Below are positions 6,494 through 41,480 of a stretch of DNA of 64,000 nucleotides, piece by piece; position 1 is the stretch's first letter, and each line of letters opens with the position of its first letter. Both the position numbers and the translations under genes were made by a program. The DNA is from Iamia majanohamensis. GTDB lineage: Bacteria; Actinomycetota; Acidimicrobiia; Acidimicrobiales; Iamiaceae. The notes under the pieces are model-generated. The model was not told the DNA's origin and did not search any database. It was given only the letters and a program-made list of their open reading frames with translations. The stretch covers positions 1,798,001 through 1,862,000 of the forward strand of contig NZ_CP116942.1 of the NCBI RefSeq assembly GCF_028532485.1. The letters run 5' to 3'.

Positions 6494-7237
6494 GTGAGCT
6501 GGTGGCGCCGCCGGCCGGGGCTGCCCGAGGACGCCGCGGACCTGGTCGAGGCCAACATCACCCACTGGGCCCACCTCGACGACGACGAGAGGGGCCGCCT
6601 GCTCGAGCTCACCGAGTGGCTCCTGCTGCACAAGAGCTGGGAGGCGGCCAACGGCTTCGCCCTCGACGACACCATCCGCACCGTCATCGGGGCCCAGGCC
6701 GCCCTGCTCGTCCTCGGCCTCACCCCGGACCACTACGGCCAGGTCACGGCCATCGTCGTCCACCCCTCGACCTCGACCCAGCGGGGCGAGCGGGCCGGTC
6801 CGGTGGCCGGCACCGCCACCGACGACGTGCTCCCAATCTACGGCCTGGCCCAGGACCGCCGGGGCCCCGTGCTCATCGCCTGGGACCAGGCCCGCTCGGC
6901 CGCCCGCCACCCCGAGCGGGGCCACAACGTCGTCTTCCACGAGTTCGCCCACAAGCTCGACATGCAGAGCGGGATGATCGACGGGACCCCGCCCCTCGAC
7001 CGGGCCGACCTGCCGGAGTGGACCCGCATCTGCACCGAGGTCTACGAGGACCTGCGGGCCGGACGCCGGCGGCCGCCGCTGCGGGACTACGGCGCGGTGA
7101 ACACCGGCGAGTTCTTCGCCGTGGCCACCGAGGCCTTCTTCGACGTCCCCCGCGAGCTGGCCCACCACGAGCCCGACCTCTACCGGGTGCTGCAGGGCTT
7201 CTACCGCCAGGACCCGGCGGCCCGCGTCGCCCCCTGA
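6494..7237 (+). CDS. mtfA: MtfA-family zinc-dependent peptidase (M90)
   Basis: This 247-residue protein matches the MtfA family, best known in enterobacteria, where it is a zinc aminopeptidase that interacts with Mlc. The zinc motif HEFAHKLD gives H149, E150 and H153, and E213 in ATEAFFD is the likely third ligand. The N-terminal part contains LLHKSWEAANGFALDD, typical of the family. I chose GTG 6494, which gives a protein of normal length (about 250) behind a G-rich Shine-Dalgarno region; the frame is open further upstream but overlaps the GntR gene in shadow frame. No Mlc-type partner is seen nearby, so the role here is open. Confidence 0.85.
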   Translation: MSWWRRRPGLPEDAADLVEANITHWAHLDDDERGRLLELTEWLLLHKSWEAANGFALDDTIRTVIGAQAALLVLGLTPDHYGQVTAIVVHPSTSTQRGERAGPVAGTATDDVLPIYGLAQDRRGPVLIAWDQARSAARHPERGHNVVFHEFAHKLDMQSGMIDGTPPLDRADLPEWTRICTEVYEDLRAGRRRPPLRDYGAVNTGEFFAVATEAFFDVPRELAHHEPDLYRVLQGFYRQDPAARVAP

Positions 7238-7295
7238 GCCGCCGGCGGGCCCTTCTCGGTTGTGGGCGGGCGCGGGCGTCGGCTGGGATGCCGTC

Positions 7296-8012
7296 GTGAC
7301 CGACCCGCCCGCCCTCGTCCGCGCCGCGGTGCGCGACGGGCTGGTGGCGATGGCGCCGCTGGCCCTCGGGGTCGCCCCCTTCGGGCTGGTCGTGGGGGCG
7401 ACGGCTGCCGAGGAGGGCCTCTCCACCCTGCAGGCGGTGGGGCTGTCGGTCGGGGTGTTCGCCGGCGCCAGCCAGCTGGCCGCCATCGACCTGCTGGGCG
7501 CAGGGGCGCCGCTCCTCGTCGTCATCGCCACCGCCCTCGTCATCAACATGCGGATGGTCATGTACTCGGCGTCGCTGGCCCCCCACGTGCGCGAGCTGCC
7601 CCGGCGCCGGCGGCTGGCGATGAGCTACCTCCTGGTCGACCAGGCCTACGCCCTCTCCGTGCTGCGCTGGGAGCGCCACGACGAGCCCGTCCGCGTCCGC
7701 TTCGCCTTCTACCTGGCGGTCGCCCTCCCGCTCTGGACCATCTGGCAGACCACCACCCTGGTGGGCGCGGTCGTGGGCAGCCGGGTGCCCGACGGGGTCC
7801 CCCTCTCGTTCACCGTGACCCTCGTGTTCCTCGCCGTGCTGGTGCCGAGCCTCACCGACCGCCCCCGCATCGTCGCCGCCGTGGTCGCCGGGGGCGTGGC
7901 CATGGGCGCCCGGGGGCTGCCGGCCGACCTCGCCCTCATCGTGGGCGCGGTCTGCGGCATCGCCGCCGGCGTGTGGGCCGAGGCCCGAGCCGACACGGGA
8001 GGCGGGGCGTGA
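7296..8012 (+). CDS. azlC: AzlC-family branched-chain amino acid exporter, large subunit
   Basis: The 238-residue membrane protein is the large subunit of an AzlCD/BrnFE type exporter. The family segments MAPLALGVAPFGLVVG near the N-terminus and GVFAGASQLAAIDLL are present, followed by a series of hydrophobic segments consistent with seven to eight membrane helices. NMRMVMYSASLAPH is typical of the family. I chose GTG 7296 over the more upstream frame opening because the conserved N-terminus begins just after it. It overlaps azlD by 4 bp, so the two subunits are coupled in translation. Confidence 0.88.
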   Translation: MTDPPALVRAAVRDGLVAMAPLALGVAPFGLVVGATAAEEGLSTLQAVGLSVGVFAGASQLAAIDLLGAGAPLLVVIATALVINMRMVMYSASLAPHVRELPRRRRLAMSYLLVDQAYALSVLRWERHDEPVRVRFAFYLAVALPLWTIWQTTTLVGAVVGSRVPDGVPLSFTVTLVFLAVLVPSLTDRPRIVAAVVAGGVAMGARGLPADLALIVGAVCGIAAGVWAEARADTGGGA

Positions 8013-8320
8013 GCGACACCTGGATCGTCATCGTCGTCGTCGGCCTGGGCACCCTCGCCGCCCGGGGCTCGTTCCTCATGGTCGCCCACCGGGGCGACGA
8101 GGTCTCGCCCCGCGTCGCCCGCGTGCTGCGGATGATCCCGCCCGCCGCCCTCGCCGCCATCGTCGGCCTCCAGCTCTCCGACCCCGACGGCTCCACCGGC
8201 CTGGTCGCCCGCCTGGTCGCGGCCGGGGTGGCCATCGGGATCACCTGGCGCTGGGCCAACCTGGCCCTGGCCCTGGTCGTCGGCGTGGTGGTGGTCGTCG
8301 CCCTCGACGCCGTGATCTGA
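8009..8320 (+). CDS. azlD: AzlD-family branched-chain amino acid exporter, small subunit
   Basis: This 103-residue membrane protein is the small partner of AzlC. It has the expected length and order: an N-terminal helix (WIVIVVVGLGTLAARGSFLM), then the RMIPPAALAAIVGLQL segment that is typical of AzlD, and two more hydrophobic stretches at the C-terminus. Its GTG overlaps the azlC stop (GTGA). A REP-like palindrome half begins 5 bp after its stop codon, split by the insertion sequence that follows. Confidence 0.88.
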   Translation: MSDTWIVIVVVGLGTLAARGSFLMVAHRGDEVSPRVARVLRMIPPAALAAIVGLQLSDPDGSTGLVARLVAAGVAIGITWRWANLALALVVGVVVVVALDAVI

Positions 8321-8325
8321 TCCGA

Positions 8326-8342
8326 CGACACGTGGTGCCAGG
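8326..8342. repeat. Left half of a REP-like palindrome plus 5-bp target duplication, interrupted by the IS
   Basis: CGACACGTGGTG followed by CCAGG is the left half of a dyad whose right half lies at 9286-9302. CCAGG (8338-8342) recurs at 9286-9290, as expected for a 5-bp target duplication. Rejoining the halves rebuilds a 29-bp palindrome that matches the intact copy at 10974-11002 except at the central base. Confidence 0.8.
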
Positions 8343-8358
8343 AGGCCGCGCGGATTGG
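8343..8358 (+). repeat. Left terminal inverted repeat of the IS
   Basis: This 16-bp end matches the inverted right end (9270-9285) at 13 of 16 positions. The three mismatches are at positions 5 to 7 of the repeat. Confidence 0.8.
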
Positions 8359-8438
8359 TGACCATCCCCGGGTCGGAGCGGTGGCTCGCGTTTGATGGCG
8401 AGTGCGCCCAACACAACCGACCAGGGGAGGTCCCTCCC

Positions 8439-9281
8439 ATGATGCGCGCGCTCGATCCCGAAGTCAGCGATGCGGTCTTCGTCACCCTCGAAGCCCTGCT
8501 GCCGGCGCCTCCCACGCACCGCATCGGAGGTGGACGACCAAGGGTCCCTGACCGGCTCATCTTCCGTGGTCTGCTGCAACGGATCGTCACCGGGGCCGCC
8601 TGGGAGACCATCGAGTTCCTGCTGGACCACCAGGTCTCTGACACCACCCTTCGAGCTCGCCGCGACGAATGGGTGCACGCCGGAGTCTTTGACCGGCTCG
8701 CCGCACAAGCCCGCGCCGCCTACGACACGATCATCGGTCTCGACACCGGCCACGTCGTCATCGACGGCAGCAACCACCTCGCTCCCTGCGGCGGCCCCGG
8801 CACCGGTGTCGGCCCAGGTCAGAAGGGCCGCCTCGGCTGGAAGTGGTGCACCGGCGTCGACGCCGCAGGCATCCCGCTGGCCTGGACCATCGACGGCGCG
8901 AACCGCAACGACTACAAGATGCTCGGCCCCACCCTGGACGCCATCGCCGCCGATCCGAACCACCTCAAGATCGGCACCCTGCACCTCGACCGAGGCTTCG
9001 GCTACGCCTCACTGCCCGACCGCCTCGCCGGCTACGACATCACCGCAGTCGACGTGATCCCCCGCAACCACCCCGGCCAAGGCCGGACCCCACTGGTCGG
9101 CTTCGGACACCGCTGGGTCGTCGAGCGGACCAACTCCTGGCTGTCGAACTTCGGACAGCTCCGCCGCAACACCGACCGACGCACCGAGCACCGTCACGCC
9201 GCCCTCTGCCTCGCCACCACCCTGCTCATCACCGCCAAGCTCATCGACCACCGCAACCACCACACCCGACCAATCCGCTGA
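8439..9281 (+). CDS. IS5-family DDE transposase
   Basis: The 280-residue product has a DUF4096-like N-terminal part (GGGRPRVPDRLIFRGLLQRI, typical of IS5 transposases) and a DDE catalytic domain. Candidate catalytic residues are the Asp in VVIDGSNH, the Asp in LHLDRGFGY and the Glu in VVERTNSWL, in the right order and spacing. The C-terminal FGQLRRNTDRR segment is also typical. I chose the ATG at 8439 because AGGGGAGG lies about 9 bp upstream; an upstream TTG at 8355 would place the start inside the terminal repeat. There is no frameshift, so the gene is probably functional. Confidence 0.88.
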   Translation: MMRALDPEVSDAVFVTLEALLPAPPTHRIGGGRPRVPDRLIFRGLLQRIVTGAAWETIEFLLDHQVSDTTLRARRDEWVHAGVFDRLAAQARAAYDTIIGLDTGHVVIDGSNHLAPCGGPGTGVGPGQKGRLGWKWCTGVDAAGIPLAWTIDGANRNDYKMLGPTLDAIAADPNHLKIGTLHLDRGFGYASLPDRLAGYDITAVDVIPRNHPGQGRTPLVGFGHRWVVERTNSWLSNFGQLRRNTDRRTEHRHAALCLATTLLITAKLIDHRNHHTRPIR

Positions 9282-9285
9282 GCCT
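9270..9285 (-). repeat. Right terminal inverted repeat of the IS
   Basis: The reverse complement reads AGGCTCAGCGGATTGG, the partner of the left end at 8343-8358. It overlaps the last codons of the transposase gene. Confidence 0.8.
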
Positions 9286-9320
9286 CCAGGCACCTCGTGT
9301 CGTCCCGGCACCTCGTGTCG
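9286..9320. repeat. Right half of the interrupted palindrome plus a second direct copy of its arm
   Basis: GGCACCTCGTGTCG occurs at 9289-9302 and again at 9307-9320, an 18-bp period. The first copy with CCAGG (9286-9290) completes the palindrome split by the IS. The array ends 16 bp after the stop of the minus-strand gene at 9336, where it could act as a terminator. Confidence 0.75.
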
Positions 9321-9335
9321 CCCCGGGCGGAGGGG

Positions 9336-10217
9336 TCAGCTGCGCGGGTCGGGGACGGGCGACGGGCCCGTGTCCCCGTCATCGGTCAGCCAGCAGGTGA
9401 TCGTCCCCTCGTGGTGCTGGCGACCGAAGGCCTCGACCCTGAGGTCCACCGTCAGGTCGCAGCGTCCCCGGGCCCGGTCCAGAGCTCCTCGACCGTCGGT
9501 GACGTCGAGGCTGTAGGGCACGCCGGAGGTCCCCACCGGCGCACTGTTGACGAACGTGCCCGAGAGCCCGGACCCGTCGTCGACGTCGAGCGAGAAGGTG
9601 CCCTCGCCGTACCACCTGTCGCCCCGGTGGGTGCCGCAGTAGTCCTCGTGCAGGCGCGCCGAGCGGCCGTCGTCGAGCGCCACGTCGACGGTGAGGTCGT
9701 GGGTGATGTCGGGGCACTCGCCCGTGCCCAGTCGGTAGGTCTCGGTTCCGGAGTAGGTCCCTCGGAGGGGGGCGGCCGTCGGCGGCACCGTCGCGGGCGG
9801 CGTCGACGTCGGCGGCGAGGTGGTCGGTGGCGGGGTCACGTCGGGTGCGGTGGTCGACGGCGCTGCGGTGGTCGACGCCGGCGGGGTCGTCGTGGTGGAC
9901 GCCGACGGCTCCGGGGCGGAGGTGGTGGGCTCGGAGGAGGCGGTGGTCGGCTCGGACGTGGTGCTCGCCGACGGGTCCGGCTCGCCCTCGACGGTCGCCC
10001 TGGCCTGGTCGGAGGCGGTGATGCGCTCGCCCGGGGCACTGCGGGTGAGGGCGCCCATCCCACCGACCACGAGCAGGGCGACGACCACGGCCAGCCCGGC
10101 GCGTCGTCGGGCGAGGTGTCGACGACGGACGACGGCCCGTTCGTGGAGTGCGCTCAGGTCGAGCTGGTCGTCGTCGGGTTCGGCCGTCTGCTCGAGGTGG
10201 TCGCGCAGGTTGCTCAT
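9336..10217 (-). CDS. Single-pass membrane protein, probable anti-sigma partner of the ECF sigma factor
   Basis: The 293-residue protein has a short cytoplasmic N-terminus (MSNLRDHLEQTAEPDDDQ), one membrane helix near residues 40-57 (AGLAVVVALLVVGGMGAL), a Ser/Thr/Pro-rich linker of about 75 residues, and an outer domain with several Cys (ECPDITHDL, DYCGTHRG, GRCDLTV, TITCWL). Its ATG overlaps the sigma factor stop (ATGA), so production is coupled. This arrangement fits an anti-sigma factor, but no HxxxCxxC zinc motif is present and I do not recognise the outer domain. The anti-sigma role is inferred from context only. Confidence 0.6.
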   Translation of the reverse strand: MSNLRDHLEQTAEPDDDQLDLSALHERAVVRRRHLARRRAGLAVVVALLVVGGMGALTRSAPGERITASDQARATVEGEPDPSASTTSEPTTASSEPTTSAPEPSASTTTTPPASTTAAPSTTAPDVTPPPTTSPPTSTPPATVPPTAAPLRGTYSGTETYRLGTGECPDITHDLTVDVALDDGRSARLHEDYCGTHRGDRWYGEGTFSLDVDDGSGLSGTFVNSAPVGTSGVPYSLDVTDGRGALDRARGRCDLTVDLRVEAFGRQHHEGTITCWLTDDGDTGPSPVPDPRS

Positions 10218-10840
10218 GGTGCGTCCTCCGGTCGGCGGGGGGCGGGCTCGGGTCTCGGGTCCGGGGCGGGCCGGGTCGGCTCGCCATCGGCCACGTCGGT
10301 CTCGTCGGCCAGCCCGGCGAGACGGAGGCCGGTCAGCGCTTGGTGCAGGTGGGCCTTCACGGTCCCGGGGCGACAGCCCATCACCGCGGCGACCTCGGCC
10401 AGGGAGAGGTCGCCGTAGTACCGGAGCACGACGGCTTGGCGCTGGCGGGGGGGTAGCAGGGCGACGGCGCGACGCACGGCGATGCTGGCGGCCACGTCGA
10501 CGTCGGGCCGTCCCGGGGGCACGGGCGTGGTGCGGGCCCGGGCCCGCCGCTCGGCCGTGGCACGACGCAGTCGGGAGCGGGCGAGGTTGAAGGCGACGCG
10601 GTAGGCCCAGGCCTCGGGGTGGTCCATCGTCTGCACCGAGGGCCAGCGTTCGATGACCCGGACGAGCGCGTCCTGGGTCAGCTCGCGGGCCGTCTCGGCA
10701 TCGCCCAGGTAGAGGCGCAGCGAGCCCAGCAGGCGGGGGTGGAGAGCACGGCACAGCTCGTCGACACCGTCCGGCCGTCGCGCCGCGGCCTGCGACGGGA
10801 CGGCGCGCTCCGCCTCGGCGACAGGTGTCCCGCCGTCCAT
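10214..10840 (-). CDS. ECF-type sigma-70 family RNA polymerase sigma factor
   Basis: The 208-residue protein has sigma region 2 (LCRALHPRLLGSLRLYLGD through HPEAWAYRVAFNLARSRLRR) and region 4 (LPPRQRQAVVLRYYGDLSLAEVA, with the recognition segment PGTVKAHLHQAL). The C-terminus is a Pro-rich tail. The ATG at 10840 is chosen because AGAGGA lies about 12 bp upstream; an in-frame ATG at 10873 is an alternative. It overlaps the downstream membrane protein by 4 bp, the usual sigma/anti-sigma layout. It resembles the SigE-like actinobacterial ECF group. The signal and regulon are unknown. Confidence 0.9.
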   Translation of the reverse strand: MDGGTPVAEAERAVPSQAAARRPDGVDELCRALHPRLLGSLRLYLGDAETARELTQDALVRVIERWPSVQTMDHPEAWAYRVAFNLARSRLRRATAERRARARTTPVPPGRPDVDVAASIAVRRAVALLPPRQRQAVVLRYYGDLSLAEVAAVMGCRPGTVKAHLHQALTGLRLAGLADETDVADGEPTRPAPDPRPEPAPRRPEDAP

Positions 10841-10953
10841 CGACCCCGTCCTCTCGTCGCGCGTGGAGACCATCCTGAGGGAGAGACGCACGAGCGGGCA
10901 ACGAGGTGTAGTCCCTCCCGGCGGGCGGCGGGTGCGGTGCCCGCCGGGTCGTG

Positions 10954-11002
10954 CCCGGCACCTCGCGTCGCGACGACACGTGGTGCCTGGCACCTCGTGT
11001 CG
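10954..11002. repeat. Intact REP-like palindrome with an extra half unit
   Basis: A 29-bp dyad at 10974-11002 has 14-bp arms (CGACACGTGGTGCC and GGCACCTCGTGTCG) around a single T; the arms differ at one base. A degenerate half unit, CGGCACCTCGCGTCG, lies just upstream at 10956-10970. The dyad ends 7 bp after the stop of the alpha/beta hydrolase gene (11010) on the minus strand. It is the intact version of the site split by the IS at 8343-9285. Confidence 0.8.
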
Positions 11003-11009
11003 CCCGGGG

Positions 11010-11861
11010 TCAGGCGGGGCGGGCGCCCTCCACGAGGCGGAGGACCTCCTCGGCCACCAGGTCGGGCTCGGTGAGCAGGACCAGGTGGTCCGATGCCTCC
11101 GCCCGGACGTGGCGGCCGTCGGGGTGGGCGGCGGCCCGGGCGACGTGGGCGGCGAGCAGGGCTTCCCGGTTGCGGCGCTGGGAGCGGCTGGGTGCAGTGC
11201 CGGTGATGACGGTGAGCGGGCACGGGGCCTCGGCCGGCGGGTCGGCCCGCCAGGCGGCCAGGTCGGTCGAGAACGGTCGCAGCTCGGCCGCGAACGCCTC
11301 CGCGGCGGGCACGGCCGAGGTCTCGGCGACCAGCTCGGCGGCGTCCCCCGGTGGGAGGGGAGCCGCCGTGCGGCGCGCCGTGGCCCGGAGCAGGCCGGCG
11401 CGGGCCGCCACGGGGAGCAGCCCGGTCGAGAGGCGCTGGGCGACCCGGGGCGCGGCCCGGAAGAAGCGGTCGCAGCGCTCGTCGCTGGCGTCGACGAGGA
11501 CCATGCCTGCGACCCGGTCGGGGAGCTGGGCCGCAGCCGCCCGCACCACCAGCCCGCCGTGGCTGTGGCCCACGAGGACGACGGGCCCGTCCAGGGTCCC
11601 GAGGAGGTCGACCAGGTCGGCGGCGAGGGCGGCGAGCGGGCGCTCCCGCCCTCCCGCCGGCTCGCTGCGGCCCAGGCCGGCCCGGTCGTAGGCCACGACC
11701 TCCGTCCGGGCCGCCACGAGGGGTAGGACGAGGGCCCAGGACGACCGCGTCGCGCCCATGCCGGCGTCGAGGACGACCGTGGGGCGGCCCGAGCCGGCGC
11801 GCACCAGGTGCAGGGCCCGCCCGTCGCGGGTCGTCGCCCGCCCGTCGGTCACCGGGGTCAC
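11010..11861 (-). CDS. Alpha/beta hydrolase
   Basis: The 283-residue protein has an alpha/beta hydrolase fold. The nucleophile elbow is GHSHGG, and the preceding strand reads PTVVLDAGMGATRSSW, which would form the oxyanion region. A likely acid Asp is in LVDASDER or LTVITGT context and the late His is in ASDHLVLLTEP. Its GTG overlaps the stop of the upstream siderophore-binding lipoprotein gene (GTGA). It may be a siderophore esterase that releases iron inside the cell, which would fit the locus, but the sequence alone does not separate this from a general esterase or lipase. Confidence 0.8.
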   Translation of the reverse strand: MTPVTDGRATTRDGRALHLVRAGSGRPTVVLDAGMGATRSSWALVLPLVAARTEVVAYDRAGLGRSEPAGGRERPLAALAADLVDLLGTLDGPVVLVGHSHGGLVVRAAAAQLPDRVAGMVLVDASDERCDRFFRAAPRVAQRLSTGLLPVAARAGLLRATARRTAAPLPPGDAAELVAETSAVPAAEAFAAELRPFSTDLAAWRADPPAEAPCPLTVITGTAPSRSQRRNREALLAAHVARAAAHPDGRHVRAEASDHLVLLTEPDLVAEEVLRLVEGARPA

Positions 11862-12871
11862 CCGCCGCCCCCGGCTGCGGCCTCCAGGGCGGGGCGGATC
11901 CGCTCGAGCGACCAGGGGATCGAGAGGGGGGTGGGCGTGTTGAGCCCGGTGACGTCCGCGTAGTCGAGGGTCGCCACCGCGCCCGACCGCACCGCCGGGA
12001 GGTTGGCGTAGCCGGGGATGTCGCCGGGGTCCGCCCCGTTGGTGAACAGCACGAGGACGTCGCTGTCGAGCAGGTCGAGGTTCTCCAGGCTCAGCTCGAC
12101 CCGCCCGGTGGCCCCGTCGGCCCGGTCGAGGATCGTCGGGGTGATCTCCAGGCCCAGCTGGGAGAACAGGGTGCTCGAGCCGTCGTCGGGGTCGGCCACC
12201 ACGTAGATGGCGTCGCCGGGCACGTAGTTGGCCAGGGCGACGGTGGCGCCCTCCAGCCCGGGCAGCGCCTCCCGGACCGCGGCCGCCTCGGCCTCGGCGT
12301 CGGCGACGAGGTCGGCCGCAGCCTCCTCGTCGCCGAGCACCCGCCCGGCGACCTCGGCCATGTCCTGCCACGCGTCGACCTCCTCGTCGCCGAGCAGGGG
12401 GATGGTGGGGGCGATGGCGGAGAGGCGCTCGTAGTCCGACTCCGACTGCACCCCGAAGCTCACCACGATGAGGTCGGGCTGCAGGGCGGCCACGGCCTCG
12501 TAGGGGATCGACAGCGAGGCGCCTCGGCCCACGTCGATCGGCTCGCTGGCGCCCAGGCCTGCGCCGCGCCACGGGTAGGTGCCGCCCTCGAGGGTGGGGT
12601 CGGCGGCGTAGCCCGCCGGCGGGGCGTCGAGGGCGAGGAGGACGTCGGTCCACTGGGTGTCGAGCGAGACGACCCGCTCGGGGCCGACGGCGACCTCGGT
12701 CTCGCCGTAGGCGTGGGTCACGGTGACGGTGCCGTCCTCCGCCGCGGGTGCGGCGGCGGTCCCCTCGTCGGCGGCGTCGTCGCCGCCCCCGCAGGCGGCG
12801 AGCAGGGCGGTGGTCGCCACGAGCAGGGCGACGAGGGCCGGCGCCGGTCGGCGCCGGATCGTGCGGGGCAT
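11858..12871 (-). CDS. Iron-siderophore ABC transporter substrate-binding lipoprotein (1)
   Basis: The 337-residue protein starts with Arg-rich residues, a hydrophobic helix and the lipobox LAAC followed by GGG, so it is a lipoprotein facing outward. The mature part is a FecB/BtuF-type periplasmic-binding fold: GPERVVSLDTQWTDVLLAL, YEAVAALQPDLIVVSFG and NLDLLDSDVLVLF are typical. The ATG at 12871 follows CAGGAGGACCC. It is co-transcribed with the alpha/beta hydrolase and divergent from a second binding protein. The region between the two starts carries a partial DtxR-like half-site (CCTAACAC), so iron control is likely. Confidence 0.87.
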   Translation of the reverse strand: MPRTIRRRPAPALVALLVATTALLAACGGGDDAADEGTAAAPAAEDGTVTVTHAYGETEVAVGPERVVSLDTQWTDVLLALDAPPAGYAADPTLEGGTYPWRGAGLGASEPIDVGRGASLSIPYEAVAALQPDLIVVSFGVQSESDYERLSAIAPTIPLLGDEEVDAWQDMAEVAGRVLGDEEAAADLVADAEAEAAAVREALPGLEGATVALANYVPGDAIYVVADPDDGSSTLFSQLGLEITPTILDRADGATGRVELSLENLDLLDSDVLVLFTNGADPGDIPGYANLPAVRSGAVATLDYADVTGLNTPTPLSIPWSLERIRPALEAAAGGGG

Positions 12872-33909: not shown

Positions 33910-34860
33910 TCAGTCCGCAGGGCGGGCCGGCGCGGCCTCGGGCGGGCGGACCAGGGCGCGCAGCGCTCCCCGCGAGCCGACCACGGCCAGCATGGCCAGG
34001 CCCCCGCCCACGCCGAGGGCCACGGCCACGCTGGCCCGGGCCACGCCGGGGGAGAGGAGCATCGGGACCTCGCCGCGGGTGAGGACCTGGCGGTTCACCA
34101 CCCCGAACAGGACGGCCAGGCCGGCAGCGCCGGTGAAGACCGGCACCCGGCCGTCGGCCCGGCGTCGGGCGGTGAGGACCAGCCCTGCGACCAGGAGGCC
34201 GGCCGCGAGCAGGGGGGCGAGCAGCGCCAGGGCCCGGGCCGGGGCTGCGTCGGCGGAGCGGGTCCAGGCCTGGGCCGCGGCGGTGGCGCAGGACGCGAGC
34301 AGGACGACGCCGGCCGCGAGGGTCACCTCGCGGCCCCAGCGGGTGAGGCCCAGGAGGGGGAGGGCGACGAGGGCGACGGCGGCGGCCGCCAGCCAGCCGC
34401 CGGCGGCGGCCCCGCCCGAGGGGCCGATGCCGATGCCGTCGTGGAGCACGACGGGGCCGGGCACGGACTCGTCGAAGGCGATGGTGCCCGGCGGCCCGTC
34501 GAGGGCGACCGAGACCTCCCAGCGCTCGACCTGGCCGCCCGGCAGGGTGGCGCGGTACACGTTGCCGTAGCGCTCGACGTCGACGGGTCCGGCGGTGTCG
34601 CCGTCGGCGCTCCCGGTGACCTCGACCCGTGCGTCCTCCACCGGGTCGCGGCCCTCCTCGGTGCGGAGGGTGAGGTCGAGCAGCACCCCCGGCGCGTCGG
34701 TGTCGTCGACGTCGCGGACGCTGGCGACCACGTCGTAGGGGCCGTAGGTGCCGAGGAAGGCGGTCCGGCTGTTGTGGGCCGCGGCCGGGCCGGCGACCGC
34801 GACGAGGGTGACCAGGGAGGCCGCCAGGGCCGCGACGAGGGCGCGGACCGCCGTCGTCAC
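33910..34860 (-). CDS. Multi-pass membrane protein with secreted N-terminal domain, partner of the copper/heme fusion protein
   Basis: The 316-residue protein has a signal peptide (LVAALAASLVTLVAVAGPAAA) followed directly by HNSRTAFLG, then an outward domain of about 110 residues with strands like YDVVASVRDVDD and RYGNVYRATLPGGQVERWEVSVAL. The signal peptide and the mature N-terminal His recall CopC- or FixH-like proteins, where such a His can bind copper, but the rest is not a clear match. Six hydrophobic segments follow. Its GTG overlaps the fusion gene stop by 4 bp (GTGA), so the two are co-translated and probably work together. Function unknown. Confidence 0.65.
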   Translation of the reverse strand: MTTAVRALVAALAASLVTLVAVAGPAAAHNSRTAFLGTYGPYDVVASVRDVDDTDAPGVLLDLTLRTEEGRDPVEDARVEVTGSADGDTAGPVDVERYGNVYRATLPGGQVERWEVSVALDGPPGTIAFDESVPGPVVLHDGIGIGPSGGAAAGGWLAAAAVALVALPLLGLTRWGREVTLAAGVVLLASCATAAAQAWTRSADAAPARALALLAPLLAAGLLVAGLVLTARRRADGRVPVFTGAAGLAVLFGVVNRQVLTRGEVPMLLSPGVARASVAVALGVGGGLAMLAVVGSRGALRALVRPPEAAPARPAD

Positions 34861-36968
34861 CCGGGGGCGCGGGTGGCGAGGGTCGAGTAGCACATCTCGT
34901 CCTCGGTGCCCTCGGCCCAGCTGATGTGGTGCGGTTCGTCGGTCGGGTCGACGAGGGCGCGGTCCCACGAGCACTCGACCCGGATGACGTCGCCCTCCTC
35001 GAGGGTGATGTCCTCGTCGAGGGCGTAGTTGAACTGCCAGTCGAAGTCCCAGCGGGGGATGTCGAGCAGCACCTTCTCCTCCGGCGTGTCCGGGTTGAGC
35101 GTCATCCGGAACGTGCTGCCGATCTCGTGCATGTGGCCGAGCACGGCGAGGACCTCCCCGGTGCTGCTCACGCCGTGGTCGCAGGAGGTGCGGGCGATGC
35201 CGTCCTCGTCGAGGTGGGAGATCTCCTCGGGGGTGGTGCCGCAGACGGCGTGGAGGCCGTTGGCGATGATCGGCCCGGCCGGGCCGTACTGCTCGCGCAG
35301 GGCCTCCATCTCGGCGTCGCGGTCGCAGCGCGGCGCCTCCTGGTCCTCGGGCAGGCACGGGATCTCGGCCGGCGCCAGGTAGGTGGAGACCTCGATGTCG
35401 TCGAGCTCCGCGGGGTCGACGTCGGACATCTGCATGGCGAGCGACGACTGGTCCGGCGGCGGGTCCTCGTCGAGGTGGTAGTGCATCTGCACCACCAGCT
35501 TGTCGCCCGGCTCCAGCTTCATGCCGGTGCCCTCGGGGAAGAGCGACGGGGGCTGGCCGGGGGCCCAGCCCATGAGCAGGTCGGAGCCGCCCATGCCGGA
35601 GGCCGACAGGCCGCTGCCGCTCACGTTGATGCCGCCGAAGCACTCCCAGCCCGGGTCGTCGTCGCGGGCCTCGGCCTCGGCCAGGGCCTCGTCGGAGTCG
35701 GTCCGCACCCGGTAGACGAGGGCGTGGTGCACGATCGGGAGCTGGTCGGGGAGGAACTGGTAGCCGGTGACGGCCGCCGGCTCGGTGAGCCCGGGGTCGA
35801 GGGTGAAGCAGCGGTAGTCGTTCTCCTTCTCCACCGTGCCGGTGTAGGGCTCGGGGAGGGTGAGCTCGACGTCGGTGCGGAGCTCGGGTCCGTCGGTCTC
35901 GGTCGCCTCGACCCGCGTCTCGGGGTCGACGTCGAGGGGCCCGCCGGCGTCGGCCCACTCGGTGATGGCGGCCACCTCCTCGTCGGTGAGGCGGGGGGAG
36001 TGCTGGAGGTCCACGCCCTCCTCGGAGGCCAGCCAGGGCGGCATGTAGCCGGACTCCACGGCGAGGCCGATGCCGGACGCGACCCGGGCCGCGTCGCCGG
36101 CGGTGGCCAGCTCCCAGGTGCCCGAGCCGGAGCCGCCGGGCTCGTGGCACGAGGCGCAGCTGCTCTCGAGCACGGGCTGGACGGTGGCGGAGAACTGCGG
36201 GTCCTCGGCGGTGGCCACCTGGTACTCGACCTGGTCGGACTCCTGCTCGTCGATGCGCAGCTGGTCGGCCTCGGGGGCCACCAGGTCGAGGTGCAGGTCG
36301 GCGTCGTCGCCCGACCTCACCAGGCCGGTGATGCTGATGGGGCCGGCGTCGAAGTCCGACAGGAGGATGTGGGCGTCGGCCACCACGTGCAGCTCGCCGT
36401 CGTCGCGGGTGACGGTGCCGGCGACCTCGACCTCGCGGGTGGTCTCCTTGATGGTCAGCTCGCCGAGGAGGGTGACGTCGTAGGCGGTGCCGTCCTCGAT
36501 GGCGTCGGGGATGCCCTCCACCTCGCGGGTCGCGAACGTGACCAGCGGGTACTGGTCGGAGCTCAGGTAGTCCTGGCGGAGGCGCTCGTCGCGCAGCGAC
36601 TCGTCGGAGGTCAGCTGCTCGACGTTGATGACGATGTCGCCCACCTCGCTGGCCGCGGGGTCGTCCTCGTCGACGAGGATGTCGCCCGCGATGCCCTGGG
36701 TCTCACCGGTGGCGGTGCTGCCCACCCCGGCGAGGATCTCCTCCACCTCATAGGTGGCGGTGGAGCGGGAGGGGTCGATGCGGTAGAGCGTCTGGCCCGG
36801 CCCGGCGGTGAGCTCGGGGGCCTCGGGCACGTCCCAGTCGACGGTGACGGGGTCGAGGCGGAACATCGACGCCCCCACCCACCCCGCGCCGGCCAGGCAG
36901 GCGAGCAGCACCGTCGACGCCACGATGGCGATCGGGTGCTTGCGCCAGAACGACTTCACCTTGGTCAT
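34857..36968 (-). CDS. Membrane-anchored YceI / cytochrome c / copper monooxygenase-like fusion protein
   Basis: The 703-residue protein has one N-terminal membrane helix (IAIVASTVLLACLAGAGWVG), then a YceI-like lipocalin domain (about residues 55-235; YRIDPSRSTATYEVEEIL, TSDQYPLVTF-like LSSDQYPLVTFATREV, LLGELTIKETTREV). A single heme c site follows, C271-A-S-C274-H275, with YMPPWLASEEGVDLQHSPRLTDEE typical of cytochrome-like domains. Residues 340-700 resemble copper type II ascorbate-dependent monooxygenases (PHM/DBH): candidate Cu ligands are H414-H415, H496 and H498 in QMHYH, and H612 and H614 in GHMHEIG. ATG 36968 has GGAG upstream. It acts outside the membrane. The substrate is unknown. 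Confidence 0.8.
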   Translation of the reverse strand: MTKVKSFWRKHPIAIVASTVLLACLAGAGWVGASMFRLDPVTVDWDVPEAPELTAGPGQTLYRIDPSRSTATYEVEEILAGVGSTATGETQGIAGDILVDEDDPAASEVGDIVINVEQLTSDESLRDERLRQDYLSSDQYPLVTFATREVEGIPDAIEDGTAYDVTLLGELTIKETTREVEVAGTVTRDDGELHVVADAHILLSDFDAGPISITGLVRSGDDADLHLDLVAPEADQLRIDEQESDQVEYQVATAEDPQFSATVQPVLESSCASCHEPGGSGSGTWELATAGDAARVASGIGLAVESGYMPPWLASEEGVDLQHSPRLTDEEVAAITEWADAGGPLDVDPETRVEATETDGPELRTDVELTLPEPYTGTVEKENDYRCFTLDPGLTEPAAVTGYQFLPDQLPIVHHALVYRVRTDSDEALAEAEARDDDPGWECFGGINVSGSGLSASGMGGSDLLMGWAPGQPPSLFPEGTGMKLEPGDKLVVQMHYHLDEDPPPDQSSLAMQMSDVDPAELDDIEVSTYLAPAEIPCLPEDQEAPRCDRDAEMEALREQYGPAGPIIANGLHAVCGTTPEEISHLDEDGIARTSCDHGVSSTGEVLAVLGHMHEIGSTFRMTLNPDTPEEKVLLDIPRWDFDWQFNYALDEDITLEEGDVIRVECSWDRALVDPTDEPHHISWAEGTEDEMCYSTLATRAPG

Positions 36969-37143
36969 GGGGCTCCGCTCCGCTGGCACCTGCCGGGGCC
37001 GCACCGGGCGGGCGCCTGCGGAGGTGGGGGTGTGACGAAAGTTGCAGTGGCAGTGACACAACGTAGTGGTCGTCGCGCGACGTGTCGACCATGCCACGGG
37101 CCCGTGCCGGGCGCCCGCGGGGTGGTGGCCGTAGCCTCCGGCG

Positions 37144-37564: not shown

Positions 37565-38419
37565 TCAGAGCCCGGCGGCGTCGGCCATGCGGTCGACCTG
37601 GTCGAGCCCGGCGGCCATGGGCCACAGGCACAGCTCCTCGACGCCGACCTCGGCCAGGGCGTCGCGGGCGCCCTGCACGTCCTCGGGGGTGCGCAGCATG
37701 TTGTCCTTGATCATCTGGGCCATGTCCGGCGCGAAGGCGTAGTAGCTGCCGGCGTTGCGGTCGGCCTCCTCCCGGACGTCGTCGCCCAGGGCCACGTAGG
37801 TGGCGGCGTAGAGCCGGGGGGCGGGCCGGCCCGCGGCCTCGGCCTCCTCGGCCATGACCTGGCGGGCGCCGGCGACGGCGTCGGGGGGGATGGGCCCGGC
37901 CACGAAGGCATCCGCGATGCGGCCGGCCCGGCGGAAGGCGGGCTCGGAGAACCCGCCGAGCACGATCTCCGGCGACGGCGGCGTGGGGCCCACGGGGAGC
38001 TCGGCCCCCTCGGGCGTCTCGCCGGCCCACACGGACCGGCAGGTGGCGACGACCTCCTCGAGGGCGTCGCCCTTGCCGGTGGGCTCCTCGCCCAGGGCCA
38101 GGTAGTCGTCGTCGCGGCCCCCGATGCCGATGCCCAGGCGGAAGCGCCCGCCGGAGATGGCGTCGAGGGTGGCGGCCTGCTTGGCCAGGAGCACGGCCTG
38201 GCGGGGCGGGGCGACCAGGACGGTGGGCATGAGGTCGATGCGCTCGGTGGCGCCCGCGGCGGCGGCGAGGGCGATGAGCTCCTCGTGGGTGTCGTAGGCG
38301 ATGCGGCCGATGGTGCCGAGCACCGAGAAGCCGCGCTCCTCGGCCTTGCGGGCCCAGGTGACCAGCTCGGGGCCCTCGACCCCGATCAGCGAGTTGGGCA
38401 GTCCGATGCCGATGTCCAT
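37565..38419 (-). CDS. LLM-class F420-dependent oxidoreductase
   Basis: The 284-residue protein is a luciferase-like monooxygenase family member with the TIM-barrel pattern MDIGIGLPNSL, WARKAEERGFSVLGTIGRI, RIDLMPTVLVAPPRQAVLLAKQAATLDAISGGRFRLGIGIG and VLGGFSEPAFRRAGRIADAFV. The LGIGIGGRDDDYLALG segment is typical of the F420-using group common in actinobacteria. Cofactor choice (F420 or FMN) is inferred from resemblance. It is transcribed towards the ACT gene. The substrate is unknown. Confidence 0.87.
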   Translation of the reverse strand: MDIGIGLPNSLIGVEGPELVTWARKAEERGFSVLGTIGRIAYDTHEELIALAAAAGATERIDLMPTVLVAPPRQAVLLAKQAATLDAISGGRFRLGIGIGGRDDDYLALGEEPTGKGDALEEVVATCRSVWAGETPEGAELPVGPTPPSPEIVLGGFSEPAFRRAGRIADAFVAGPIPPDAVAGARQVMAEEAEAAGRPAPRLYAATYVALGDDVREEADRNAGSYYAFAPDMAQMIKDNMLRTPEDVQGARDALAEVGVEELCLWPMAAGLDQVDRMADAAGL

Positions 38420-40162: not shown

Positions 40163-40301
40163 CGGGTCTCCTGGGGGTCCGTGGTGCGAGGAGCCGAGGC
40201 TACGACCTCGCGACCACCGCCCGTGACCGCTGCGGCGCAGGTCACACCGGCGCGCGGTAGCGTTGCGACCGGCGGACACCGTCCCGCCCCGAGGAGGCCC
40301 C

Positions 40302-41480
40302 GTGGCCATCGACGACATCCGCTCGAGCATGCGATCGAACGAGGAGATCATCGGCCGGTCCGACCTCGACGACGCCGAGGCGATCCTCGCCATCACCACC
40401 CTCGATGAGACCGCCACCGTCCACGCGGTGGCCGACCACGCCGACGCCATCTTCACCTGGGACTACGAGAAGGGCGCCCGACCGGCCCTCTCCAAGCTCT
40501 ACGAGAAGGCCAAGACCTCGCAGTGGAACGGCGAGACCGACCTCCCCTGGGACACCGCCGTCGACCCCGAGCAGGCGGTGCGGGAGCAGAACGCGGCGAT
40601 GAACCCGGGCGCCGAGAGCCTCGTGCCCCCGTTCGACACCACCGGCACCCCCCTCGCGTCCTGGGGCGAGGCCGAGTACCTGGCCCTGGGCATGGAGATG
40701 CAGAACCACCTGCTCAGCCAGTTCATGCACGGCGAGCAGGGCGCCCTGCTGTGCACGGCCAAGATCGTCGAGACGGTGCCGTGGATCGACGCCAAGTACT
40801 ACGCCGCCACCCAGGTGGTCGACGAGGCCCGCCACGTCGAGGTCTTCGCCAAGTACCTCGACACCAAGCTCGCCGGCCACTACCCGGTGAACGCCCACCT
40901 CCGGATGCTCCTCGACGACATCATCGAGGACTCCCGGTGGGACATGACCTACCTGGGCATGCAGATCATGGTCGAGGGCCTGGCCCTGGCCGCCTTCGGG
41001 ATGATGCACCAGACCACGTCCGAGCCCCTGCTCAAGCAGCTGCTCCGCTACGTGATGAGCGACGAGGCCCGCCACGTGGCCTTCGGCGTGCTCAGCCTGA
41101 AGGAGTACTACGCCGAGCTGTCGGCCTCGGAGCTGCGCGAGCGCCAGGAGTTCGCCTTCGAGGCCGCGGTGCGCATGCGCGACCGCTTCCTCCAGCAGGA
41201 GGTGTGGCAGCGCCTCGACATCGACGTCGCCCCCCTCATCCCCATCCTCCGCCAGGACCCGGGCCGCATCCTCTTCCAGCAGCTGCTGTTCTCCAAGATC
41301 GTGCCCAACTGCAAGAAGCTGGGCCTGCTCGACGCCGGCGCCCCCGCGGGCGGCAAGGGCTGGCTGCGCGAGCGCTTCGAGGAGATGGACGTCATCCAGT
41401 TCGAGGACATGGTCGACACCGGCGAGGAGTACGAGGCCCTCGACGCGGTGGCCGCTGACCGGGCCACCGCCGGCGCCTGA
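40302..41480 (+). CDS. Ferritin-like diiron protein (AurF/R2-like)
   Basis: The 392-residue helical protein has two DEARH motifs, VVDEARHVEVFAKYL and VMSDEARHVAFGVLSLKEYY, each supplying Glu and His ligands, plus Glu residues in EMQNHLLSQFMHGEQGALL and QIMVEGLALAAFGMMH. This four-helix, two-iron pattern is shared by ribonucleotide reductase R2, AurF-type N-oxygenases and related oxidases. The N-terminal 90 residues and the C-terminal tail are extra to the ferritin core. GTG 40302 follows GAGGAGG. The substrate is unknown; it stands alone, with no ferredoxin reductase beside it. Confidence 0.82.
   Translation: MAIDDIRSSMRSNEEIIGRSDLDDAEAILAITTLDETATVHAVADHADAIFTWDYEKGARPALSKLYEKAKTSQWNGETDLPWDTAVDPEQAVREQNAAMNPGAESLVPPFDTTGTPLASWGEAEYLALGMEMQNHLLSQFMHGEQGALLCTAKIVETVPWIDAKYYAATQVVDEARHVEVFAKYLDTKLAGHYPVNAHLRMLLDDIIEDSRWDMTYLGMQIMVEGLALAAFGMMHQTTSEPLLKQLLRYVMSDEARHVAFGVLSLKEYYAELSASELRERQEFAFEAAVRMRDRFLQQEVWQRLDIDVAPLIPILRQDPGRILFQQLLFSKIVPNCKKLGLLDAGAPAGGKGWLRERFEEMDVIQFEDMVDTGEEYEALDAVAADRATAGA

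Follow-up and report, generated by a model that had tools for sequence, protein, structure and literature searches.

A predicted membrane-anchored fusion of YceI, heme c and PHM/DBH-type copper monooxygenase domains in Iamia majanohamensis and its relatives

PHM and dopamine beta-hydroxylase (DBH), which make amidated hormones and noradrenaline, are the textbook ascorbate-supplied copper monooxygenases. In DBH, one copper site (CuH) has been suggested to transfer electrons and the other (CuM) to handle oxygen and substrate, with the DBH ligands given, and how the two distant coppers cooperate in PHM and DBH is not settled (PMC4846438). Cbp2D and Cbp2E of Cellvibrio japonicus are secreted proteins that carry YceI, with two cytochrome c domains also present in Cbp2D, and the combination of YceI and cytochrome c has been proposed as an electron donor for lytic polysaccharide monooxygenases (LPMOs), the copper of which is reduced by the isolated Cbp2D heme domain (PMC8981238). 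The BcnA/LcoA YceI lipocalins of Burkholderia are encoded beside a heme redox partner, cytochrome b561 (PMC9113575). We analyzed a window of 64,000 nucleotides from Iamia majanohamensis (assembly GCF_028532485.1, contig NZ_CP116942.1, positions 1,798,001 to 1,862,000), in which a single open reading frame (ORF) of 703 codons spans positions 34857-36968 of the minus strand exactly and is predicted to join a membrane anchor, a YceI domain, a c-type heme domain and a PHM/DBH-like copper monooxygenase in one chain.

The fusion protein resembles PHM and DBH in its two-domain fold, its three-His CuH site, its His-x-His plus Met CuM site and the Gln-x-His-Tyr sequence round the third CuH ligand. It differs from them in being bacterial and membrane anchored and in carrying a predicted covalent heme c and YceI, not DOMON or lyase domains; neither DOMON nor a carbohydrate-binding module (CBM2) was among the Pfam matches of the fusion protein up to an E value of 1, and no NCBIfam model scored above its cut-off. 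The likeness to Cbp2D lies in the YceI domain, the c-type cytochrome and the link to a copper monooxygenase, but Cbp2D contains two cytochrome domains along with CBM2 and FN3 and would work with a separate LPMO, whereas here the copper enzyme is within the same chain (PMC8981238). BcnA and LcoA differ in their separate genes, in the b hemes in the membrane and in their role in lipid peroxyl-radical detoxification (PMC9113575). DBH also has an extra domain ahead of CuH, a DOMON domain from a class with heme-binding members, but human DBH DOMON is without heme ligands, whereas the fusion has a CxxCH heme site (PMC4846438). A passage of PMC6529398 contains no bacterial case, and no YceI-heme-copper monooxygenase fusion was described among the matches listed in our search of open-licence papers. 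The catalytic kind and the YceI-cytochrome pairing are known, as is, for LPMOs, the ability of a heme domain to reduce a copper monooxygenase; the covalent union of YceI, heme c and copper monooxygenase was not found described among those listed matches. Fusions of heme c with PHM have been annotated in other phyla, and our genome search covered this phylum. The initial annotation of the gene had presented the idea as new, which calls for a qualification, as this architecture is widespread in its order, with 55 proteins in 51 genomes.

Behind the predicted membrane anchor, Pfam analysis gave the order YceI (residues 62-231), heme c (about 264-338) and copper monooxygenase (about 380-703). This is the domain order that the initial annotation had claimed, and its coordinates, from which the strand had been omitted, its membrane anchoring and its CxxCH motif all agree with our results (Table 1). 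We took the ATG at 36968 as the start because the anchor segment comes right after it; the upstream frame is open as far as a GTG at 37097. Among 124 copper-part ORFs, counting that of the window, 55 have the YceI-heme-copper architecture (triple proteins), 51 are heme-copper proteins, and 18 have the copper part only. The triple order is therefore not a chance arrangement or a one-off.

The copper part is, as judged by fold, profile and ligands, a predicted dicopper monooxygenase core of the PHM/DBH type. With the single protein, Cu2_monoox_C (PF03712) matched residues 589-694 with an E value of 7.6e-5 (22.7 bits versus a cut-off of 23), and Cu2_monooxygen (PF01082) matched residues 408-498 with an E value of 0.0019 (18.8 bits versus a cut-off of 30). 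In a scan of the 4.58-Mb genome, Cu2_monoox_C reached 25.8 bits, above the cut-off, as its sole match at an E value of ≤0.001. When we searched 25 aligned triple proteins, Cu2_monooxygen matched 18 and Cu2_monoox_C matched 17 at an E value of ≤0.01, with best E values of 2.9e-8 and 3.7e-8, respectively. The single fusion sequence matched no PHM or DBH structure among solved structures; a profile of 43 copper parts matched human DBH (E value of 1.3e-7, in two stretches of 13.5 and 18.9 bits) and rat PHM (E value of 1.3e-6, 20.8 and 7.4 bits). We also built a structure model of the copper part from three sequences (the window, L032 and L033), which matched the two beta-sandwich domains of the PHM core with moderate confidence. 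The first 30 rows listed by Foldseek were all PHM/DBH (E value of 6.7e-10), as were the first 26 matches listed by VIA-align (Z of 13.3-14.8, then 8.5), and the structural alignment with PHM/DBH had about 16% identity. A monooxygenase-fold match within residues 340-700, which the initial annotation had called for, was thus found by Pfam, the 43-row profile, Foldseek and VIA-align.

The profile alignment placed H414-H415 and H496 on known ligands of both PHM and DBH, H612-x-H614 on DBH ligands and M692 on the DEMC of PHM, with the PHM copper ligands being those that we take to bind the metal. The printed PHM alignment stops short of HxH, and the Met motif of DBH, EEMC, sits in a shifted, gapped stretch. 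All six putative ligands are invariant among the relatives (Table 1), as is Q494. Seven Cys residues of the copper part are present in 124/124 relatives, and an eighth (C387) is present in all except one gapped and one masked row. The three His clusters of the initial annotation (414/415, 496/498 and 612/614) are all present and match two copper sites, but H498 is an additional His near a ligand and not one itself, and Met692 had been missed.

The cytochrome c models of Pfam matched residues 264-338 with an E value of about 0.01 (16.8 bits versus a cut-off of 27 and 17.4 versus 21.3), and Cytochrome_CBB3 (PF13442) matched all 25 aligned triple proteins at an E value of ≤0.01, the best being 7.6e-6. 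All 106 heme-bearing relatives keep the two heme Cys residues, the heme His and Met309. They also all keep H498, W640 and W644, which are replaced in most heme-less relatives, with Asn at the H498 position in all 17 of those that are complete. Heme attachment would be feasible because the genome has CcmE and two Cytochrom_C_asm genes (system I) clustered at 660-663 kb; ResB, of the system II cytochrome maturation pathway, was sought in the genome and not found.

The YceI domain was matched by PF04264 with an E value of 6.8e-22 (78.9 bits versus a cut-off of 23.7) and also matched solved YceI and polyisoprenoid-binding structures; the Pfam match recurred in 25/25 aligned triple proteins at an E value of ≤0.01. 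A hydrophobic stretch with a mean of >1.6 precedes YceI in 52 of the 55 triple proteins, and the remaining three have means of 1.55-1.59. The lipobox pattern is present in 39/51 heme-copper proteins, 1/55 triple proteins and 5/18 copper-only ORFs, and the 12 heme-copper proteins without it comprise 11 that look lipoprotein-like by eye and one that is cut. Since the triple proteins are transmembrane-like and the heme-copper proteins mostly have a lipobox, the gain or loss of YceI appears to accompany a change of tether. Membrane attachment, heme and copper are predicted to be retained when YceI comes or goes.

Genome G469 has a tandem pair of triple genes (locus L064, positions 7220-9451 and 9949-12165), which have in common an identical 1,034-bp tract (7364-8397 and 9985-11018) spanning the anchor, YceI and the heme domain as far as the linker. 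Past the linker, DNA identity per 100 bases drops to 62-78%; the two copper domains are 63% alike. We read the pair as one electron module that may serve two catalytic domains. Between the two genes is a gene for a cupredoxin-like protein (Table 1), the best solved relatives of which are copper nitrite reductase (E value of 0.0025), plastocyanin and amicyanin.

We propose that the fusion faces outward from the membrane to which it is tethered and is a PHM/DBH-type dicopper monooxygenase with an electron wire of its own, and we give this reading a probability of about 0.5. The path would run from the anchor through YceI, heme c and CuH to CuM, because the order of the chain equals the expected electron flow. 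The YceI barrel would take up a prenyl quinol (menaquinol; these bacteria use menaquinone), the quinol held in YceI would reduce heme c, and heme c would pass single electrons to CuH, replacing ascorbate. CuH, the electron-transfer copper, would pass the electrons to CuM, the oxygen and substrate copper, which would hydroxylate a small substrate outside the cytoplasm at a C-H bond, with the substrate held between the two copper domains. Reduction of CuH by the heme is probable; delivery of a quinol by YceI, which draws on the analogy with Cbp2D/E, seems to us about evenly balanced. The YceI of Cbp2D/E is described as ubiquinone-8-binding, a related YceI structure contains ubiquinone-8 (PMC8981238; PMC10154616), and the ligands of YceI proteins are octaprenyl lipids or ubiquinone-8 (PMC9113575). 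More tentatively, and somewhat short of even odds, the family could form an ascorbate-free, respiration-powered branch of PHM/DBH, in which YceI menaquinol would feed CuH through heme c and a His498/Trp relay and so couple the quinone pool to extracellular C-H hydroxylation. A natural heme-copper core fusion from a bacterial family that is frequent within one order would offer a one-electron-at-a-time handle on the PHM/DBH active site and a direct test of the role of the YceI lipocalin fold when joined to redox enzymes.

Several observations weigh against this proposal. YceI is, on the sequences compared, unnecessary for electron supply and not the sole electron entry, because about half of the heme-bearing members are without it. 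Isoprenoids without redox activity also occur in known YceI barrels (PMC9113575), and heme-to-LPMO rates were "rather slow" in a system where full Cbp2D could not be made (PMC8981238). The correlation of H498 and the two Trp residues with the heme domain rests on a single split, since the heme-less relatives form one group on the copper-part tree and the correlation is thus one evolutionary contrast. The better PHM/DBH E values depend on the wider 43-row profile; a profile of the 25 triple proteins gave E values of only 0.017 for PHM and 0.087 for DBH. The copper-part model is moderate (pLDDT of 57.6, pTM of 0.57), its Foldseek TM-scores by model length are 0.42-0.50 to PHM/DBH and 0.43-0.50 to PHM, with a root mean square deviation of about 7-9, and a full-length model from a three-row alignment reached a pLDDT of 34.7. 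The tandem genes of L064 are a single case, as other same-genome pairs show nothing similar, and their shared tract could come from gene conversion that ended there by chance or from an assembly effect; the cupredoxin-like protein between them is without a Pfam cupredoxin match, and its PDB matches are weak. The neighboring genes indicate no pathway.

The same domains would also fit the idea of the initial annotation that YceI binds a lipid-like substrate for the copper domain while the heme feeds electrons, making a self-contained lipid hydroxylase. YceI barrels do bind isoprenoids (PMC9113575), and the YceI part matches polyisoprenoid-binding structures. The second gene downstream of the fusion gene in the window encodes a wax ester synthase, and in locus L080 a gene for an EXPERA-family (sterol isomerase-like) membrane protein (8344-9093) is immediately downstream of the triple gene. 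Among 43 loci (40 regions of 12-20 kb, the window, L032 and L033), however, a wax ester synthase relative occurs in only one other, L088, far from the fusion gene, and EXPERA occurs in no other. A substrate set by YceI is made less likely by the 51/106 heme-bearing relatives (one cut at a contig end) that are without YceI and keep the heme and the copper ligands. It is also less likely because in L064 one identical YceI-heme module joins two diverged copper domains, the opposite of what a substrate-choosing YceI would give. The substrate site of PHM/DBH lies, moreover, at CuM (PMC4846438). We consider a lipid hydroxylase unlikely, though not negligible.

YceI-less relatives that retain tether and heme would agree equally with YceI being a spacer or lipid-shielding domain and the heme being reduced by a respiratory bc complex or a cupredoxin, for which the cupredoxin-like gene of L064 would be a candidate. 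We doubt this explanation; it leaves unexplained why a ligand-binding barrel stands in place of a linker and why YceI is paired with heme in Cbp2D, and the cupredoxin-like gene is present in only 1/43 loci. The same parts would also serve a reverse flow, in which the copper domain would oxidize a substrate and heme and YceI would pass the electrons to the quinone pool, as in a dehydrogenase or oxidase; cytochrome domains often collect electrons. Such a flow is very unlikely given that all six monooxygenase ligands are retained in 124/124 relatives and that, to our knowledge, the characterized members of the PHM/DBH fold are monooxygenases. Finally, the fold matches PHM best, as a bacterial peptide-amidating enzyme would, yet we rejected a true PHM as hardly credible. 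At the places of PHM Arg240, Asn316 and Tyr318, which we take to be the peptide carboxylate contacts, a hand alignment puts Leu610, Tyr694 and Thr696, so the fusion does not keep the presumed peptide-contact residues of PHM. The 55 triple proteins have, at these hand-placed positions, Leu in 46, Phe or Tyr in 55 and Thr or Ser in 47.

The copper part was matched in 109 of 397 genomes of the order. Besides the match of the window itself, there were 136 copper-part matches, of which we fetched 121 and left out 15 short or contig-end pieces (G539:C119, G539:C80, G633, two in G631, two in G583, G389, G602:C283, G602:C399, two in G405:C98, two in G584 and G375). The 124 ORFs come from the window, L032, L033 and 118 fetched regions, and two named relative loci are Acidimicrobiales/Acidimicrobiia metagenome-assembled genomes. 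L164, cut by a contig end, was counted as copper-only and does not figure in the tree. The 5' side is truncated in L120 and L149, and L149, counted as heme-copper, could have lost YceI in this way. L093 and L100, which were among the first 45 members, were omitted from the 43-row profile (A3). The triple proteins, that of the window included, fall into nine family codes, with the window counted as f1. The gene is patchy even inside the genus, as G463 and G643, of the same genus as the window, gave no copper-part match.

When we compared the whole protein with 296 genomes drawn from the phylum, full-length matches were found only in the same order, together with many YceI-only matches. Of the 396 genomes of the phylum scanned, PF03712 matched 11, all but one within the order, but it is a poor probe, missing G031, G113 and G134 although they have members. 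A search of a plasmid collection returned seven records, six with matches over the YceI part and one, from Nonomuraea, with the copper part. The latter match, in Nonomuraea gerenzanensis (NZ_LT559118.1, 339205-340146), is 33% identical over residues 367-693, and no gene is listed there; the copper domain therefore extends outside the order. In a rapidly built tree of 123 copper parts, the architecture changed at least 4 times, and the presence of YceI among heme-bearing members changed at least 3 times; the copper-part tree does not distinguish gain from loss as the direction of the YceI changes.

Table 1. Features of the fusion gene and of two neighboring genes (window positions unless locus L064 is named)
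Feature	Coordinates	Strand	Basis
Whole gene, 703 aa: anchor, YceI, heme c, Cu monooxygenase	34857..36968	-	
Predicted membrane anchor, residues 13-31	36876..36932	-	Kyte-Doolittle 19-window mean 2.17
YceI (lipocalin-like) domain, residues 62-231	36276..36785	-	PF04264 and solved YceI structures
Predicted c-type cytochrome domain, residues 264-338	35955..36179	-	PF13442/PF00034 below cut-off; invariant heme residues
CxxCH heme-attachment motif, residues 271-275	36144..36158	-	106/106 heme-bearing relatives
Met309 in MPPW, likely distal heme ligand	36042..36044	-	106/106 heme-bearing relatives
Predicted CuH domain, about residues 380-520	35409..35831	-	PF01082 408-498 below cut-off; PHM/DBH profile match; fold
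His414-His415, putative CuH ligands	35724..35729	-	124/124; aligned with HH pair of PHM and DBH
His496 in QxHYH, putative third CuH ligand	35481..35483	-	124/124; aligned with QVHY of PHM
His498, not a PHM ligand, tracks heme domain	35475..35477	-	His in 106/106 heme-bearing, Asn in 17/17 complete heme-less
Predicted CuM domain, about residues 589-703	34860..35204	-	PF03712; profile match
His612-x-His614, putative CuM ligands	35127..35135	-	124/124; aligned with HTH of DBH
Met692 in DEMC, putative CuM ligand	34893..34895	-	124/124; aligned with DEMC of PHM
Next gene, 316 aa, GTG start overlapping fusion stop codon	33910..34860	-	
Cupredoxin-like membrane-anchored protein	L064 9448-9864		Between tandem genes, overlapping first gene's stop

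Judged by eye, the product of the next gene has a signal peptide, after which the mature protein probably begins with His; it also has a single outer domain and several membrane helices. It has no Pfam family match. From these features it is possibly a candidate copper-handling partner of the fusion protein. When sought in the 43 loci, it was found only in the window; in 198 genomes of the order it was found in 7, including its own, and the other six matches are partial, covering the C-terminal half (E values of 9e-12 to 3e-4). We clustered the neighbors in the 43 loci and printed the clusters found in at least 4 of them. The gene picking, by length and third-position GC, was crude, misses short genes and missed the next gene of the window itself. 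We rejected a conserved operon, as the clustering gave no partner at a fixed place, and a lipid-gene context, which is not recurrent among the loci. Glutaredoxin adjoins the fusion gene in three near relatives among the 43 loci, L071 (492-809, by Pfam), L070 (about 8720-9013) and L101 (the last two by similarity), and is far off in L072. Two oxygenase-like genes lie near the fusion gene in the window, one for a luciferase-like monooxygenase (37565-38419, minus strand) and one AurF-like (40263-41480, plus strand).

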